NCBI RefSeq assembly: GCF_003841485.1
Contig: NZ_REFY01000004.1
Span: forward strand, 1 to 64,000
Direction of reading: 5' to 3'
Length of the DNA stretch: 64,000 nt
From: Natrarchaeobius halalkaliphilus
GTDB taxonomy: Archaea > Halobacteriota > Halobacteria > Halobacteriales > Natrialbaceae
Shown: piece after piece, positions 38,093 through 45,291 of the stretch
Layout of the letters: each line of letters begins with the position of its first letter
Numbering within the stretch: position 1 is the stretch's first letter
The notes under the pieces: model-generated
Databases searched by the model: none
What the model was told of the DNA's origin: nothing
What the model saw: only the letters and a program-made list of their open reading frames with translations
Program-made: the position numbers and the translations under genes

Positions 38093-41000
38093 TCACGTCG
38101 GCCCACAGCCGAGCGAGCGATGCGAGCAGGACCGGCAGTGACCGCCCGGCGTCGTCTCCGCGTAGGCGGGATCGTCGACCGCCTCGATCGTCTCGCGGAC
38201 CGCGGTCCACGGCGGGAGTTCGTCGGGTTCGAAGAGGTCGACGCGCGGCCCATCGAGATCCCCGACGTAGACGTAGCCAGCGGTGGCGATCGACTCCTCG
38301 AAGCGGCGGCCGCAGGCTCGAGCGTAGAGCGCGAGCTGGACGGCCTCGTCGGGATCGATCCGTTCGGCTGTCGCCTTGTAATCGAGGACGGCGAGCGATC
38401 CCTCGCCGGGACCGTCGTCCGGGAGCCGGCGAACGGAGTCGACGTAGCCGACGACGTCGCCGGAGACGCCGTCGACCTCCTCGAGCGAGAACGGCAGTTC
38501 CGCGGCGAGCAGGTCCCAGTCCGCGACCGGCCGGTCGATCGACGGAGCCCCGGCCTCGAAGTAGCGATCGACACAGGCGAGGACCGCCTCGCGATAGCCC
38601 TCGAGATCCCGGGCGGTGAGCTGTCGGACCGCCGCCTCGCGCCACTCGTCCCGGCCGCTGTACTCCCGGTAGAACGCCTCCTCGGCCACGTCGTGAAAGA
38701 CGGTTCCGACGACGCGCGGGCTCGGATCGTCCGAGAGCGTCTCGGCTCCCCTCGAGTCGCCCCCGACCACGACCGGATCGTCGACCGCCCGGACGACGTG
38801 GTCCAGGTAGTGTTTCCGTGGACAGGTGCCGTGGGTCTCCATCGCGGTGTAGCTGTGGCGCATCGCGACCGGGGTTTCGGCTCCCCCTGCGAGCGCCTCC
38901 ACGGGGAACCGGACCGTCTCGTTCGTGAGCGCCGAGGCCTGCCGACCGCTCGGCACCGGCCCCCGTGGCTCGTCGTCTCGGTCCCGTTGCCCGACGGCGG
39001 CCGAATCGACCGCGTCGGTCACGTCCGCCGCATCGGCCGCCGGCAACAGCGTTCCGTCCCTGAGCATCCGCCCCAGTCGGTGGACCGTCTCGATCGCCTC
39101 CCGCGTCTCGAGCGGCTCGATCGACCGATCGTCGATGCCGGCGTAGTACGTGATCGTTCCCGGCCTCGAGTCGGCCGACCGGGCGATCTCGTCGGTTCGG
39201 TCGACGACCGTCTCGGGGTAGGTCTCTCGAACGCGCTCGAAACTCTCGGTCAGCGACGACCAGAGATCCATGCGCTCGCCGGTTACCGACCACTCGATCT
39301 CCGGTGCCAGACAGGCCGTCGCGGTTTCGGCCCCGAGTTCGCCGTCCTCCCCGTCGTAGTCGTACGCCGAACCGAAGACGAACAGGTGATTTTCGGCCCG
39401 CGTGAGCGCGACGTGGAGGACGCGCCACTCCTCACCGACCGTTTCGGCGGCCGGATCCGAACGCAGCGGCGAGTCGACCTCGTCGTCGAGCGTCGCGGCC
39501 AGCAGTTGATACCGTGCGCGCTGTGCGTAATCCGTCTCGACGCACCACTCCTCGTCGGTGAGATACGGAACGAGGACCGTATCGAACTCGAGGCCCTTGG
39601 CCTGGTGGACCGTCATCACGTCCACGCAGTCGTCGGAGCCGCTGGCGCGGGTTCGCTCGCGCTCGCCTCCCCGAAGCGTCCGCTCGAGGGCGTCGACGAA
39701 CTCCGGCGACAGCGCCCGAAGCGTCGCATCGGTGTCGTACGCCTCGACGAACCGCTCGAGGCGGTCGATCTCCCCCCGTTCTTCGGTCGTGAGGAACCAC
39801 TCGACCCGCGTCAGCGCTCGAAACCGGCGGACGAACCCCGTGAGCGGGTAGACGTCGCGCATTCCCGCGAGCGCCTCGAGGTGCGTGCGCGCTCGCTCGA
39901 GACGGGCCGGGCGCTCGAGGGCGTCGCGTTCGACCTCGAAGACCGCATCGTACAGCGCCCCCTCTCGACGCTGGAGGACCGCGAGGTCGTCGTTCGAGAG
40001 CCGGTAGCGATAGAGGAGGACTCGTCTGAGATGGACGTCCGCGCTCGGATCGACGAGAACCCGGAGATACGAGAGGACCGTCCGGACGCCCGGCGAGATC
40101 TCGCCTCGAGGCGAGCCCGAAATCTCACAGGGGATCTGCACCTCGCGAAGTTCGGACGCGATCGCTCGGGCCTGGCGGTTGGTCCGGACGATGACCGCAA
40201 CGTCGCCGAGCGTTCGACGAGGAACGTTCTCGCACTCGCCGTTGAGCAGCCGCGATATCGCTGTCGAGACCTGCTCGGCGCTCGAGCGCTCGATCTCGTC
40301 GCTCTCGACTTTGATGACGCGATCCGGTGGCGTCGCATCCGACTCGTCACCCGTCTCCGGTTCGTCGTCGGCCGCCTTCGATTCTCCGTCGGCCGCGCCG
40401 GATCGTCGGTCGACCTCCCGGAGCGTCTTCGAGGTCTGGGGTCCGTAGTCGCAGTGGTTGGTCAGGTCCAGGATCTCCTGGCGCGACCGGAAATTGAGCT
40501 CGAGTTCGATCGACTCGTGATCGTCGTAGACCGCGCCGAGGCGGTCGAGCCCCTCGCGGTCGGTTCCCCGCCAGCCGTAGATCGCCTGGTCTTTGTCCCC
40601 GATCGCGAGCAGGTCGGGTCGATCGGAGCCGCTCGTGAGCGCCGTAATCAGCGCGAACTGGGTTTCGTCCGTGTCCTGGAACTCGTCGCAATACACCCGC
40701 TCCCAGCGTCCGGCGATCTCGTCTGCGACCGTCTCGGGGGGCGGCGACTCCGCGTCGGTCCCGGACCGAGACGACGGGCCCGTCTCGCCGTCGACCAGCC
40801 CGGTCGCGGTCCTGACCAGCTCGTCGAAATCGAGCGCGCGCTCGGCCTCGAGGTATTCGTGATAGTCGGCGTAGACGTCGGCGTAGTGGCGAGCCAGCCG
40901 GAGGAACTCCACGTAGTGTTTCAGCCGACCGAACGGGCTCTGTTCGATCCGATCGGTCGCCGTCCGCCAGATCTCGTTTCCGAACAGCGCACGCGGCAGC

Positions 41001-41869
41001 TGTTTCGTCGTCGGTTCCGCGAGCGAAAGCGTCTCGATCGTGTTCGTCACGCACCGCTGGAGGATCCGAAGGTAGCGATCGACGTCACGGACGACGGCGT
41101 CGTCGCGAAACGCCGCCGGCGCCTCGACGATCTTCTCGCGACAGTACGAGAGGAGCTTGCCGTAGCCGACCAGCGACTCTCCGGCGTCCCGGAGATGCGT
41201 CTCGTCGGTGAAGTAACGGAGGGCCTCGTTGTCGAACGACAGCTCCTCGTCGGCCCGTCGCTCGAGCCAGAGGACGAACTCGGAGAGCAACTCGAGGGTC
41301 CGAACGTCCGGGAGCTCCGTTCTGAGCGTCTCCGGCGTGATGTCCTCCTGGCTCATCGCCCGGATGAAACGATCGACCGAGTCGACGACGTCGGCCGGCG
41401 ATCCGTCGCCGGTCGCCCGCGGTGCCGCAAAGTCGTACTCGTTTTCAGCGAGCAGCCGGCCGACGATCCGGCGGCGCGTTCGCTCGGTCACGACCTCGAA
41501 CTCCGGCGAGTAGCCGAGGAAGTAGGCGTACTCCCTGACCAGTCGATAACAAAAGGAGTGGTAGGTGTAGACGTCGATCGCCGCCGCGGTTTCGGGATCC
41601 AGGCGTTCGGACACCGCATCGCGGATGTTGCCCGCCGCCTCGTTGGCGAACGTCAGGACGAGCACGTCCTCGGGATCGACGTCCCCGCTCTCGATCTCGC
41701 GCTCGAGTCGCAACAACATCGTCGTGGTTTTTCCGGTTCCGGCACCCGCATCGACGGACGTACAGGCCGACGTGCTCTCGATGACGGCTCGCTGATTTCC
41801 CCTGGGCTCGAGGCGATCGGACCCCGCGTCGTCGGACCGCTCCGGTTCGCGTTCTCCCGTCTCAGCCAT
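38093..41869 (-). CDS. AddA-like UvrD/RecB helicase fused to an Fe-S PD-(D/E)XK nuclease
   Basis: The 1258-aa protein is an SF1A helicase with a C-terminal nuclease. Walker A is AGAGTGKTTT (41-50), Walker B DEFQDTDETQ (about 396), motif III GDKDQAIYGWRG, and motif V/VI VMTVHQAKGLEFD (about 755) with HVALTRAENHLFVF. From about residue 1000 comes a RecB/Cas4-like nuclease: Cys in HGTCPRKHY, His in GTVFHDVAEEAF, Asp in VGYVDS, Asp-Lys in LDYKAT and the QLALYARACG helix, closing with CRSCSHRSLGC. The Cys pattern C...CxxC(x5)C is the Fe-S cage of AddB and Cas4 nucleases. It would unwind and degrade DNA ends. Last gene of a three-gene operon; its start overlaps the middle gene by 8 nt. Confidence 0.9.
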   Translation of the reverse strand: MAETGEREPERSDDAGSDRLEPRGNQRAVIESTSACTSVDAGAGTGKTTTMLLRLEREIESGDVDPEDVLVLTFANEAAGNIRDAVSERLDPETAAAIDVYTYHSFCYRLVREYAYFLGYSPEFEVVTERTRRRIVGRLLAENEYDFAAPRATGDGSPADVVDSVDRFIRAMSQEDITPETLRTELPDVRTLELLSEFVLWLERRADEELSFDNEALRYFTDETHLRDAGESLVGYGKLLSYCREKIVEAPAAFRDDAVVRDVDRYLRILQRCVTNTIETLSLAEPTTKQLPRALFGNEIWRTATDRIEQSPFGRLKHYVEFLRLARHYADVYADYHEYLEAERALDFDELVRTATGLVDGETGPSSRSGTDAESPPPETVADEIAGRWERVYCDEFQDTDETQFALITALTSGSDRPDLLAIGDKDQAIYGWRGTDREGLDRLGAVYDDHESIELELNFRSRQEILDLTNHCDYGPQTSKTLREVDRRSGAADGESKAADDEPETGDESDATPPDRVIKVESDEIERSSAEQVSTAISRLLNGECENVPRRTLGDVAVIVRTNRQARAIASELREVQIPCEISGSPRGEISPGVRTVLSYLRVLVDPSADVHLRRVLLYRYRLSNDDLAVLQRREGALYDAVFEVERDALERPARLERARTHLEALAGMRDVYPLTGFVRRFRALTRVEWFLTTEERGEIDRLERFVEAYDTDATLRALSPEFVDALERTLRGGERERTRASGSDDCVDVMTVHQAKGLEFDTVLVPYLTDEEWCVETDYAQRARYQLLAATLDDEVDSPLRSDPAAETVGEEWRVLHVALTRAENHLFVFGSAYDYDGEDGELGAETATACLAPEIEWSVTGERMDLWSSLTESFERVRETYPETVVDRTDEIARSADSRPGTITYYAGIDDRSIEPLETREAIETVHRLGRMLRDGTLLPAADAADVTDAVDSAAVGQRDRDDEPRGPVPSGRQASALTNETVRFPVEALAGGAETPVAMRHSYTAMETHGTCPRKHYLDHVVRAVDDPVVVGGDSRGAETLSDDPSPRVVGTVFHDVAEEAFYREYSGRDEWREAAVRQLTARDLEGYREAVLACVDRYFEAGAPSIDRPVADWDLLAAELPFSLEEVDGVSGDVVGYVDSVRRLPDDGPGEGSLAVLDYKATAERIDPDEAVQLALYARACGRRFEESIATAGYVYVGDLDGPRVDLFEPDELPPWTAVRETIEAVDDPAYAETTPGGHCRSCSHRSLGCGPT

Positions 41870-42974
41870 CGAATCGAACCTCCGTCGCGATCCGCTCTTG
41901 GCAGCAGACGGCGTACGCACAATCCGGACAGACCGTTCGCTCGATGTCATCCCAGCGATCGCTCGGATCGAAGCCATCCGAGACGAGCTGGGCCGCCACC
42001 GTCTCGAGTCGCGTCTCGACCGTCTCGTTTCGGTGCTCGTGGGTCATTCCGTAGGTGTGATGATCGATGTAGACGTCGGTGAGATCGACGATCTCGAGGC
42101 TCGTCTCGACCGACTCGCTGACCCAGTTCACCGACGTTCCCGACCGGTCTGCGAGCGGAATCACGACGAACCGACAGGTCCGTCCCTCGAGCCCGAGCCG
42201 ATCCCGGAGAGTTCGAAGTCCCTCGAGGACCACGGCAGTCTCCAGGAGCGCGCCGACCGGTCCCGGTTCGAACGCGGCGGCGTCGGGATCGAAGTGATCC
42301 TCGAACAGCGCGGCGACGTCGCCGTCCCACTCCGACCGGTACCGAAGTGGTCCGAGCGGAGCGAGCGTCGGAACGAACCGAACCCCGACGATCGAGGAGC
42401 CCTCGCCGTAGACGTAGTCGACGCTCGCCTCGATCGCCACGGACCGTGGCTCGCACCGAGAGACCGTTCTCGAACCCGACTCGCGGTTCGCGTCGGCGGA
42501 GGACGACGGTTCGGAAGGTGCGGCCGGTGGCGACGCCGACACCCGGCTCGAGAGCGTCCTGTCCGGTCCGACGAGAGCGCCGTCGACGTCGGCTGTCGAC
42601 GCCAGTACGTCGATGCCGGCCGCGTGATCGGCCCCGACGCGGGAAACGTAGGCCTCGAGCGTCGCCTCGAGTACGTTTCGCTCGTGGCGTCGCTGCGCTC
42701 GGGAGTGAAACCGTTCGTCGTGGTCCTCCCACAGCGACGACAGCCGCGTCCGAGCGACCTCACCGAGCGCCTCCGCGTCCGTTTCACCGCTCTCGAGGGC
42801 CGCACAGATCGAGCGCCGGAGGAGGTCGACGCGCTCGTCGACCGCGTCGTCGTCGCGTTCGAGCCCGTAGACGTGTGCGAACTCGTACTGGCGCGGACAG
42901 CGGAGGTACGTGTCGAGGCCGTCGGCGGGGATCCGCGAGTCGGCTCGGGACTGATCGACCGAATCGTCGCTCAT
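41862..42974 (-). CDS. Fe-S PD-(D/E)XK-fold protein, AddB C-terminal-like
   Basis: The 370-aa protein opens with a Cys-containing motif LDTYLRCPRQYEFAHVYGL and ends CPDCAYAVCCQERIATEV. First Cys far upstream and C-x2-C-x5-C at the end reproduce the Fe-S cage of AddB and Cas4 nucleases. The middle holds the beta-sheet of the PD-(D/E)XK fold (SVAIEASVDYVYGEGSSIVG), but where a nuclease has Asp and Glu/Asp-x-Lys it reads Asp then VGVRFV, so the nuclease site looks dead. It probably acts as a structural subunit. ATG 42974 overlaps the upstream gene stop as ATGA, and its own end overlaps the helicase start: strong coupling. An AddB split into two polypeptides is the best explanation. Confidence 0.75.
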   Translation of the reverse strand: MSDDSVDQSRADSRIPADGLDTYLRCPRQYEFAHVYGLERDDDAVDERVDLLRRSICAALESGETDAEALGEVARTRLSSLWEDHDERFHSRAQRRHERNVLEATLEAYVSRVGADHAAGIDVLASTADVDGALVGPDRTLSSRVSASPPAAPSEPSSSADANRESGSRTVSRCEPRSVAIEASVDYVYGEGSSIVGVRFVPTLAPLGPLRYRSEWDGDVAALFEDHFDPDAAAFEPGPVGALLETAVVLEGLRTLRDRLGLEGRTCRFVVIPLADRSGTSVNWVSESVETSLEIVDLTDVYIDHHTYGMTHEHRNETVETRLETVAAQLVSDGFDPSDRWDDIERTVCPDCAYAVCCQERIATEVRFDG

Positions 42975-45250
42975 CTCGATCCACCCGATCCGGTTCGGTC
43001 CGATCCAGGGATCACGTCGCCGACGGCGAACGCGAACTGCGAGCGAACCGCCGCCGCGAGCTCCTCGTCGACGTCTCCTTCGAGGACGACCGCGATCTCT
43101 TCGAACAGCGCCTCCGTCTCCGTGAGGTCCGCTTGTCCACCGGTACTCGCCTCGCACAGCACCCGCTCGAGTTCGCCACGCGGCTGGTCGAGCAGCGCCT
43201 CGATGGCGTTCGATTCGCCGTGAATCGTCGCTTCGGTCGACGTCTCGACGTCCTCCAAGACGAGCCCTGGCGTCGAATCGATCAGTTTCAGATAGCGCGA
43301 CTCGTCGTAGCTCCGACGCAGACCGCCGGAGCCGCGCTCGTAGGAACAGACGTAGAGGACGCTTCGGGCCGCCCGAGAGCCGAGAGCGAGTCGCCGGCGC
43401 GATCGCTGGGCGTGGTAGGTTTCGAAGGGATCACCGATCGCGTCCGGGTCGGCGGCGGTCGCGAACGTGTCCCGGATCGTCCCCCGTGACGGATCGGTGA
43501 CGGCGGGGTACGTCGCCATGGTCCGAAGCCACGCCGTCGGGAACAACCCGGTGAGAAACTGCTCGCCGGGATAGTTCTCGTCGATCAGGTCGAGCACGAA
43601 GACGGCTTCCCGCGAATCGTATTTGAGTGCGTCGACGGAACAGACCGTGACGCCGCCCGTCGGCGGCCGCGTCTCGACCGCGTGGACGTAGGGTGCGTCG
43701 TACTGGATCGTTCGCCTCAGCATCCGTCGGAGTCCCCGCCAGTCGGGGCCGATCAGATCGGTTCGCTCGACGAACCGTGCGATCTCGAGGACGCGGCGGA
43801 TCCCCTCGAACTGTTCGCGGGCGTCGACCCACGACTCGTCGCTCGCGATCCGTCCTTTCAGGTCCGTCCGAACGATCCATCGCTCGAGCGACCGGACGAT
43901 GCTCGCCCGCTCGCAGTCCCCGAGCAGCGACGGCGAAAAGTCGTCGACTCGCGCTCGAAGCCGATCGCGGGCGACGTCCCGGTTACGGTCCCGTCCTCGC
44001 GGCCTCTGTTCTCCGTCGTCCCCGCGGTCTCGAGCGCACAGGAGAGTCACGACGGCGTAGAGTTCGTTGACCGCCGGATCCTCCGCGAGCGACGGCGTGC
44101 CGATCGTCGCGGTCGGAATCCCCGCCTCGCGGAGTCGGCGTCGCGTCTCCGGAACGCGTTCGATCCTCGGGACGGCGACCGCGACGTCGTCGCCGGTCCA
44201 GCCGTGACGGTCGAGAAGCGACTTGATCTCCGTCGCGACCGCCCGGACCTGCTCGCGGGCGGTCCGGGATCGAATCCGTTTCGCCCGGCCCCGATCCTGT
44301 GACCCCGTCTCCGACGGGAGGCTCTCCCGCGTCACTGGTGGGGGTTCTCCCGTCGCGAGAAACCGGGTGATCGCCGCGTGCGGAGGTCGCTCGTCGGACG
44401 CGCTCGGAGCGTGCTCGCCCGGCGGACGAGCCGAGTCGCGTCCAGCGAGAACGTCGACCTCGAGTCCGTCCCCGACGACGCTCTCGATCCGGCCCGGTTC
44501 GACTCGCGTTCGCTCGACGCTCGCGTGGCGCTCACCGAGACAGACGAGGGCTGCGTCCTCCGAAAGAAAGCCGAGATACTGCCGGTCGAGCCGGCGGTAC
44601 TCCTCGAATTCGATTGCGAGCACGGCGTCGATCGACGACGTGATGCGCCCTTGCAGACCGTCCGAATCGGTTTCGAGCAGCGCGGTCGCCCGCGGGACCA
44701 CGTCGGCCCGCTCGACGTATCCGCGGCGCTCGAGTTCCTCGTGGAACCGGTCGTTCATCGCGTAGAGAAACGCGAGACACTCGTGTGGGTCCCGACCGCC
44801 GGCCTCGAGGTCAGCGAGTCGGGTTCGCTGGCGCGTCGCTTCGAGCAGCAACTGTCCCACGTCGCGAGCGAAACTCTCGTGATCCGACGCGCGCTCGAGG
44901 TACGCGGGAACGTCCCGACTCGCACCGTCGATGACGAGCGAAATGAGCTCGATCCGCTCTTCGTACTCGAGACGATCGAGCGTCGGGTCGTACTCCTCGA
45001 TGACTTTCGAGGCGTGTTCGGGCAGCGACTCGACCCGTGGCGACCGCGGCGACCCGTCCGCGACGTCGACGGCCGCAAGCAGTTCGCGGACGCGCTCGAG
45101 ACCCGCCGGATGTCGCTTCAGAACGAGGACGTTCCGCGGGCCGTACTCGGTGGCGAGTTCGGCGTACTCCTCGGTGACCGCCTCGGACAGCGACCCGGTG
45201 GGGGCGGGGAGGAGCCGACAGGAACCCTCGAGCGAGGAGTCGGGCGACAT
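42971..45250 (-). CDS. AddB-like inactivated helicase subunit
   Basis: The 759-aa protein begins SPDSSLEGSCRLLPAPTGSLS, in the place where a P-loop (GxGxGKT) would be in AddB/RecC relatives; Lys is missing, so ATP hydrolysis is not expected. The middle and C-terminal parts keep the UvrD-like fold features: VAVAVPRIERVPETRRRLRE, then GVTVCSVDALKYDSREAVFVLDLIDENYPG, which matches the region 'V...G...FD.V...GL' followed by 'FP' of AddB proteins, and SRRRLALGSRAARSVLYV. AddB-type subunits hold DNA and recognise sequence. The start is ATG 45250. First gene of the operon, with a TATA-like TTTAAATACG about 33 nt upstream. Confidence 0.7.
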   Translation of the reverse strand: MSPDSSLEGSCRLLPAPTGSLSEAVTEEYAELATEYGPRNVLVLKRHPAGLERVRELLAAVDVADGSPRSPRVESLPEHASKVIEEYDPTLDRLEYEERIELISLVIDGASRDVPAYLERASDHESFARDVGQLLLEATRQRTRLADLEAGGRDPHECLAFLYAMNDRFHEELERRGYVERADVVPRATALLETDSDGLQGRITSSIDAVLAIEFEEYRRLDRQYLGFLSEDAALVCLGERHASVERTRVEPGRIESVVGDGLEVDVLAGRDSARPPGEHAPSASDERPPHAAITRFLATGEPPPVTRESLPSETGSQDRGRAKRIRSRTAREQVRAVATEIKSLLDRHGWTGDDVAVAVPRIERVPETRRRLREAGIPTATIGTPSLAEDPAVNELYAVVTLLCARDRGDDGEQRPRGRDRNRDVARDRLRARVDDFSPSLLGDCERASIVRSLERWIVRTDLKGRIASDESWVDAREQFEGIRRVLEIARFVERTDLIGPDWRGLRRMLRRTIQYDAPYVHAVETRPPTGGVTVCSVDALKYDSREAVFVLDLIDENYPGEQFLTGLFPTAWLRTMATYPAVTDPSRGTIRDTFATAADPDAIGDPFETYHAQRSRRRLALGSRAARSVLYVCSYERGSGGLRRSYDESRYLKLIDSTPGLVLEDVETSTEATIHGESNAIEALLDQPRGELERVLCEASTGGQADLTETEALFEEIAVVLEGDVDEELAAAVRSQFAFAVGDVIPGSDRTGSGGSR

Positions 45251-45281: not shown

Positions 45282-45291
45282 GTATTTAAAT
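45282..45291 (-). promoter_or_regulatory. promoter of the helicase-nuclease operon
   Basis: The minus strand reads TTTAAATACG about 33 nt before the first start codon at 45250. It sits back to back with the CBS-gene promoter in the 104-bp gap. Confidence 0.5.

Follow-up and report, generated by a model that had tools for sequence, protein, structure and literature searches.

Three overlapping genes from the haloarchaeon Natrarchaeobius halalkaliphilus raise the question of whether this organism has its own version of the bacterial helicase-nuclease AddAB, and whether the AddB half of that enzyme has here been divided between two proteins. In archaea, the resection of DNA breaks is usually ascribed to HerA-NurA and Mre11-Rad50, not to RecBCD-type enzymes. 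In the current study, we used computation to obtain the families, folds, and motif status of the three products (which we call B1, N2, and A3), their co-conservation, their division into two clades, and their gene neighborhoods. By analogy with the bacterial enzymes, we infer, with a probability of roughly 0.7, that the trio would form a single heteromeric complex, that it would process DNA ends by the AddAB/RecBC principle, though with another arrangement of subunits, and that it would serve the cell in this capacity.

Gene layout and the three products

The genes lie on the minus strand of a 64,000-nucleotide stretch of DNA, referred to here as the window, and are listed in the order in which they would be transcribed, after a candidate promoter element.

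45283..45290, minus strand: TATA-like element TTTAAATA, ca. 33 nt ahead of the B1 start, read in the sequence
42971..45250, minus strand: B1, 759 aa, predicted AddB-type inactive SF1A helicase; putative scaffold and possible sequence scanner
41862..42974, minus strand: N2, 370 aa, predicted free-standing Cas4/AddB-type nuclease fold with a four-Cys Fe-S cage and loss of the catalytic residues
38093..41869, minus strand: A3, 1258 aa, predicted active SF1A helicase and active Fe-S RecB-family nuclease of UvrD-Cas4 type

Translation of the window gave all three ORFs without internal stops. The genes are coupled as the original prediction had described, with a shared ATGA at the B1/N2 junction (42971-42974) and an 8-nt overlap, ATGGCTGA, between N2 and A3 (41862-41869). 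The element TTTAAATA sits in the short gap between B1 and a divergent CBS-domain gene and, from its sequence, is a possible promoter for the operon. The nearest conserved neighbors of the window trio are housekeeping genes, with the CBS-domain protein upstream and a NUDIX hydrolase, prolyl-tRNA synthetase (ProRS), and glutamate synthase (GltB) downstream.

Single-sequence searches with B1 returned no match in Pfam or the PDB, and only a family profile worked. Built from 39 sequences, this profile found B. subtilis AddB as its best match in the PDB (E 1.7e-9); UvrD1, PcrA, and AdnA ranked below it. When members of the family were scanned, weak but repeated matches to UvrD_C, ADDB_N, and addB_Gpos were seen; B1 alone fell below significance against the curated AddB models, whose cut-offs it missed. 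The AlphaFold2 model of B1 (pLDDT 82) had AddB chains as all four of its top Foldseek matches (E 3.5e-21 to 6e-20), followed by UvrD/Rep and then AdnAB. A regex scan of the family found Walker A at the ATP site in no member; the one match obtained, at residue 685 of a single B1, lies away from the ATP site and was rejected as a chance match. Judged by motif, profile, and predicted fold, B1 is an inactive SF1A helicase, and of the solved structures, Bacillus AddB comes closest to it. An AddB-like dead helicase is what had been proposed, and the profile relation to AddB/RecC-type helicases on which that proposal hinged was found.

B1 also carries one conserved insertion in its C-terminal helicase lobe.

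43430..43561, minus strand: B1 insertion, residues 564-607, ca. 41 residues relative to active UvrD/PcrA, placed by breaks in the UvrD1 and PcrA profile alignments

In AddB and RecC, a latch insertion in domain 2A is reported to control Chi recognition (PMC4824097). That the B1 insertion falls in the same lobe is only suggestive of a counterpart to this latch.

The second protein, N2, combines an invariant Cys cage with an active site that differs between members of the family.

42897..42899, minus strand: N2 cage cysteine C26, invariant in 61/61 sequences
41901..41930, minus strand: N2 cage cysteines C349-x2-C352-x5-C358, invariant in 61/61 sequences
42372..42380, minus strand: N2 residues 199-201, R-F-V in place of the catalytic D-x-K, which is intact in 30/61 sequences

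All 39 members scanned matched PDDEXK_1, with a best E value of 3e-25 and a value of 2.5e-7 for the window N2. Because the N2 family profile gave only chance matches among PDB sequences, a fold search was needed. The AlphaFold2 model (pLDDT 87) had AddB as its best fold match, modest at E 2e-3, and then RecE, Cas4, and AddA. Like the four cage cysteines, a catalytic histidine and a catalytic aspartate are the same in all 61 sequences. The remaining active-site residues, Asp, Lys, Gln, and Tyr, are all present in 30 of the 61 aligned sequences and are lost in 31, including that of the window, where the four positions read R, V, E, and V. We regard N2, on its motifs and model, as a predicted free-standing RecB-family PD-(D/E)XK domain of the Cas4/AddB Fe-S nuclease type. 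The cage pattern C...C-x2-C-x5-C and the relation to the PD-(D/E)XK fold, both anticipated in the original prediction, hold, the latter by the PDDEXK_1 matches in 39 of 39 members and a weak fold match; the degenerate nuclease core holds for the window protein but not for the family, half of which keeps a complete active site.

The third protein, A3, appears intact throughout, with matches to UvrD-helicase (E 5e-48), UvrD_C (E 9e-29), and PDDEXK_1 (E 3e-19).

38114..38854, minus strand: A3 nuclease domain, residues 1006-1252, placed by domain match and conserved motifs

Its nuclease active site comprises H1059, D1144, D1163-Y-K1165, Q1178, and Y1182, and this whole site and the helicase motifs are conserved in 60 to 61 of the 61 sequences. 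The A3 cage (C1016 and C1245-x2-C1248-x6-C1255) is invariant in 60 of the 61, the sole exception being a truncated A3 (A3 is truncated at locus L069). The expectation of an apparently active nuclease with a cage of its own agrees with these motifs, and since this cage comes in addition to that of N2, the machine has two. By hhalign, A3 scored 683 against archaeal single-chain UvrD-Cas4 and 545 against archaeal AddA; the Cys cage is present in the former and absent from the AddA comparators. Against the NCBIfam AddA model, A3 reached 134 bits, with a cut-off of 708. From its motifs, A3 reads as a UvrD-Cas4-type fusion in which both the helicase and the nuclease are intact. The label "AddA-like" given to it earlier fits its job, an active helicase-nuclease fusion, but is inexact for its lineage. 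PADLOC matches of A3 to GajB (Gabija) and RTasHel were set aside as generic UvrD similarity.

Known relatives and the possible origin of the split partner

Bacterial AddAB (B. subtilis; PDB 3u44 and 4cej) shares its plan with the trio, an active SF1A helicase-nuclease chain with a dead-helicase/Fe-S-nuclease partner, and B1 and N2 each have AddB as their best structural match. The two differ in that AddB is one chain, whereas its counterpart here is two proteins; that A3 has a four-cysteine cage, which archaeal AddA lacks; and that the AddB nuclease is intact, whereas the N2 of the window's clade is predicted to be catalytically dead. RecBCD offers a parallel to the window's clade, by analogy and not by descent, in that one active helicase-nuclease would work with a partner in which both folds are inactive. 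However, RecC is a single chain and is joined by the RecD motor, whereas the partner here is split, and we found no third helicase or RecD-like motor in the window operon. RecBCD is not known to have an Fe-S cage, whereas in the trio the cage is retained. In mycobacterial AdnAB, two UvrD-type halves are each joined to a RecB-type nuclease, and B1 also matches the AdnA and AdnB folds. AdnA and AdnB are each a single-chain fusion, whereas in the trio only A3 is fused and the other half comes as two proteins, with AddB matching better than AdnA or AdnB. In Gabija, the UvrD-like GajB is encoded with GajA; no GajA-like (OLD-family nuclease) neighbor occurs among the genes examined around the trio. 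The nearest family of A3 is that of the UvrD-Cas4 fusion helicases, in which an SF1 helicase is joined to a caged PDDEXK_1 nuclease; in the available portion of the paper that describes them, these are reported to stand alone or with restriction genes and not in a B1-N2-A3 trio (PMC5704561). Among the non-subscription papers searched, we found no description of a haloarchaeal AddAB.

AddAB pairs also occur in archaea. In another family of the same phylum (f20; loci L196-L198 and L219-L238), addB and addA are adjacent, and the AddB has the layout of B1 followed by N2. Unlike in the trio, this AddB is unsplit (ca. 990-1190 aa) and carries the one cage, and both nucleases are intact. AddB-model matches were present in 29 of the 40 genomes searched.

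In each of the 60 haloarchaeal loci, which were fetched around B1 homologues with identity down to ca. 31%, B1 and N2 have a gene of their own. Because an unsplit AddB stands beside AddA in the f20 family, it is plausible that the trio represents an ancestral AddB plan that was split. In a helicase tree, B1 groups with archaeal AddB (SH-aLRT 98), both being long branches. We set aside a global hhalign alignment of B1 with archaeal AddB, in which the C-terminal part was placed wrongly.

An AdnAB-like origin is a possibility to which we give less credence, though a substantial share of it. A single-chain UvrD-Cas4 would have been duplicated; one copy would have remained active as A3, and the other would have lost its ATPase and broken into B1 and N2. 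The function would be much the same, but the trio would stand outside the AddAB lineage. This would account for a cage in both halves, unlike the case of AddAB, and for the closeness of A3 to UvrD-Cas4. The hhalign scores against archaeal UvrD-Cas4 are also no lower than those against archaeal AddB, at 137 versus 105 for B1 and 89 versus 64 for N2. However, UvrD-Cas4 evolves slowly, so its scores are inflated, the fold search puts AddB above both UvrD and AdnAB, and the grouping of B1 with archaeal AddB in the tree speaks for descent from AddB. Of the proposal that AddB was split in two, then, the separateness of the two genes stands, and the split itself is plausible alongside a duplicated UvrD-Cas4.

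Two clades in different genomic settings

A tree of B1 and A3 requires just one change in the state of N2, and the branch on which it falls has full SH-aLRT support. Among the trios with a dead N2 is the window-type copy (at least 57% identity), which is present in 38 of the 46 sampled genomes of the window's family; four further genomes of that family have only a version that is 42-45% identical. The remaining four (G036, G087, G134, and G169, three of them from one genus) have no trio, so it is not essential there. Named records of the window-type copy are Natrialbaceae. In that family, the form is chromosomal and near-universal and lies beside the ProRS, NUDIX, CBS, and GltB genes. Trios with an intact N2 have a patchy distribution over other haloarchaeal families and are often plasmid-borne, with methylase, Mrr nuclease, AAA ATPase, PLD, and Argonaute genes as neighbors. 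The window's family includes at least four genomes that carry both kinds of trio (G063, G100, G205, and G240).

The Argonaute (pAgo) and PLD genes form a recurrent pair at the following loci.

L050, L053, L056, L057, L061, L063, and L065: Argonaute-PLD pair directly upstream of an intact-N2 trio
L246, Salinigranum marinum plasmid: Argonaute-PLD pair with an intact-N2 trio

At the first seven, the order is pAgo, PLD, B1, N2, A3, with a gap of 5 nt between PLD and B1. These pAgo-PLD-trio loci appear to be five-gene operons, and in many cases methylase, Mrr, or DUF234 ATPase genes come next. Their PLD protein shares 31% identity (E 6e-90) with the frame that follows the pAgo of N. pellirubrum, whose system has been named APAP and consists of a long-A Argonaute and a PLD protein, AgaP (PMC11442185). 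A helicase gene close to some ago-agaP operons is noted in the same paper, although its available portion does not identify this neighbor as an AddAB-like trio. At the loci listed here, the helicase-type neighbor of the Argonaute-PLD pair is the whole trio. The window copy, in contrast, has neither a pAgo nor a PLD gene.

The window's chromosomal Natrialbaceae form is most likely a housekeeping enzyme of repair, recombination, or DNA degradation, and the patchy intact-N2 form is most likely a defense effector that accompanies an Argonaute-PLD system at some of its loci. The original prediction had left the role as recombination or defense; these appear to divide between the two clades and are not an open choice for one protein. 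It could be argued that the whole trio, the window copy included, is primarily an antivirus or antiplasmid system and not a repair enzyme, given the plasmids and the pAgo, PLD, methylase, and Mrr neighbors of the sister clade and the fact that enzymes of the RecBCD/AddAB type also degrade foreign DNA. We consider this unlikely. The chromosomal position of the window's clade, its presence in 38 of 46 family genomes, and its conserved housekeeping flanks all speak against it. In PADLOC, moreover, neither B1 nor N2 is represented by a model, and the A3 matches are generic UvrD similarity. As for phages, no link was seen, B1 having no match among 50,697 phage records.

A proposed machine and its meaning

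The order B1-N2-A3 is kept in 60 of 60 loci, with overlaps mostly of 4 or 8 nt. Since the genes keep this order, nearly always overlapping, down to ca. 31% identity, the arrangement is more than chance. In the other direction, B1 is present in every one of the 48 genomes that have a strong A3 match, so the co-conservation on which the original prediction staked its case holds in both directions. Pairwise distances of the three proteins are correlated at r = 0.95-0.99, also inside each clade, which indicates that they travel as a unit. That A3 acts by itself as a UvrD-Cas4 helicase-nuclease, with B1 and N2 as separate regulators or recruiters that merely share its operon, would agree with the single-chain UvrD-Cas4 proteins found without B1 or N2 elsewhere in the phylum, but is improbable in light of this joint retention and codivergence and given that B1 and N2 resemble the halves of AddB, which is itself an obligate partner.

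If the three proteins do form one complex, A3 would be its motor and cutter, B1 a dead-helicase scaffold, and N2 a separate AddB-type module with a nuclease fold. The complex would bind a double-strand DNA end, which the Fe-S domains of A3 and N2 would help to hold; a role of the Fe-S cage in end binding is reported for B. subtilis AddAB (PMC4176176, citing Yeeles 2009). A3 would then pull 3'->5' along one strand with ATP, while B1 would channel the other through its dead helicase, where it may search that strand for a regulatory sequence in the way that AddB and RecC look for Chi. The A3 nuclease would cut the emerging DNA. In the window's clade, where N2 presumably cannot cut, one nuclease would serve the complex, as in the RecB/RecC logic; in the sister clade, an intact N2 would provide a second, as in the AddAB logic.

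Other enzymes are at hand in the same cell. A role for the trio as a substitute for a missing HerA-NurA is unsupported, since NurA-family (PF09376) matches above the curated cut-off occur in 224 of 243 genomes of the order, including that of the window (G000:C2:337477-338427). Matches above this cut-off were also found in the Haloferax volcanii control genome; a review gives HerA and NurA as absent from H. volcanii (PMC7776575). The window's genome further encodes a Dna2-like protein of 936 aa (G000:C2:242713-245523; L248) that has a caged RecB-family nuclease at its N terminus and an SF1 helicase at its C terminus, a layout judged by eye and from a PF12705 match. With NurA-family and Dna2-like proteins in the same genome, redundancy in end processing is likely, and either could do this work instead of the trio.

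One speculative extension, which we put forward tentatively and would sooner doubt than assert, is that the trio is the haloarchaeal lineage's own AddAB/RecBC, a three-subunit, two-cage enzyme whose dead helicase and AddB-type nuclease came to be separate proteins and in which one inactivation of N2 then gave rise to a fixed, one-nuclease housekeeping form in the Natrialbaceae, next to a mobile, two-nuclease form that serves Argonaute-PLD immunity by degrading DNA marked or cut by Argonaute.

The trio would follow the known AddAB/RecBC logic with another subunit arrangement, including a split partner and two cages, and it presents a clean evolutionary contrast. This contrast amounts to a natural experiment, in which a single change within one protein family separates two-nuclease from one-nuclease complexes, just as AddAB differs from RecBCD. 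Because the Fe-S cage is kept in all members while N2 activity varies, a noncatalytic role of the caged domain is directly testable. The Argonaute-PLD link of the two-nuclease form hints at how such systems might clear targeted DNA. For the Natrialbaceae, a near-universal AddAB-like machine would add a player to the resection of DNA breaks.
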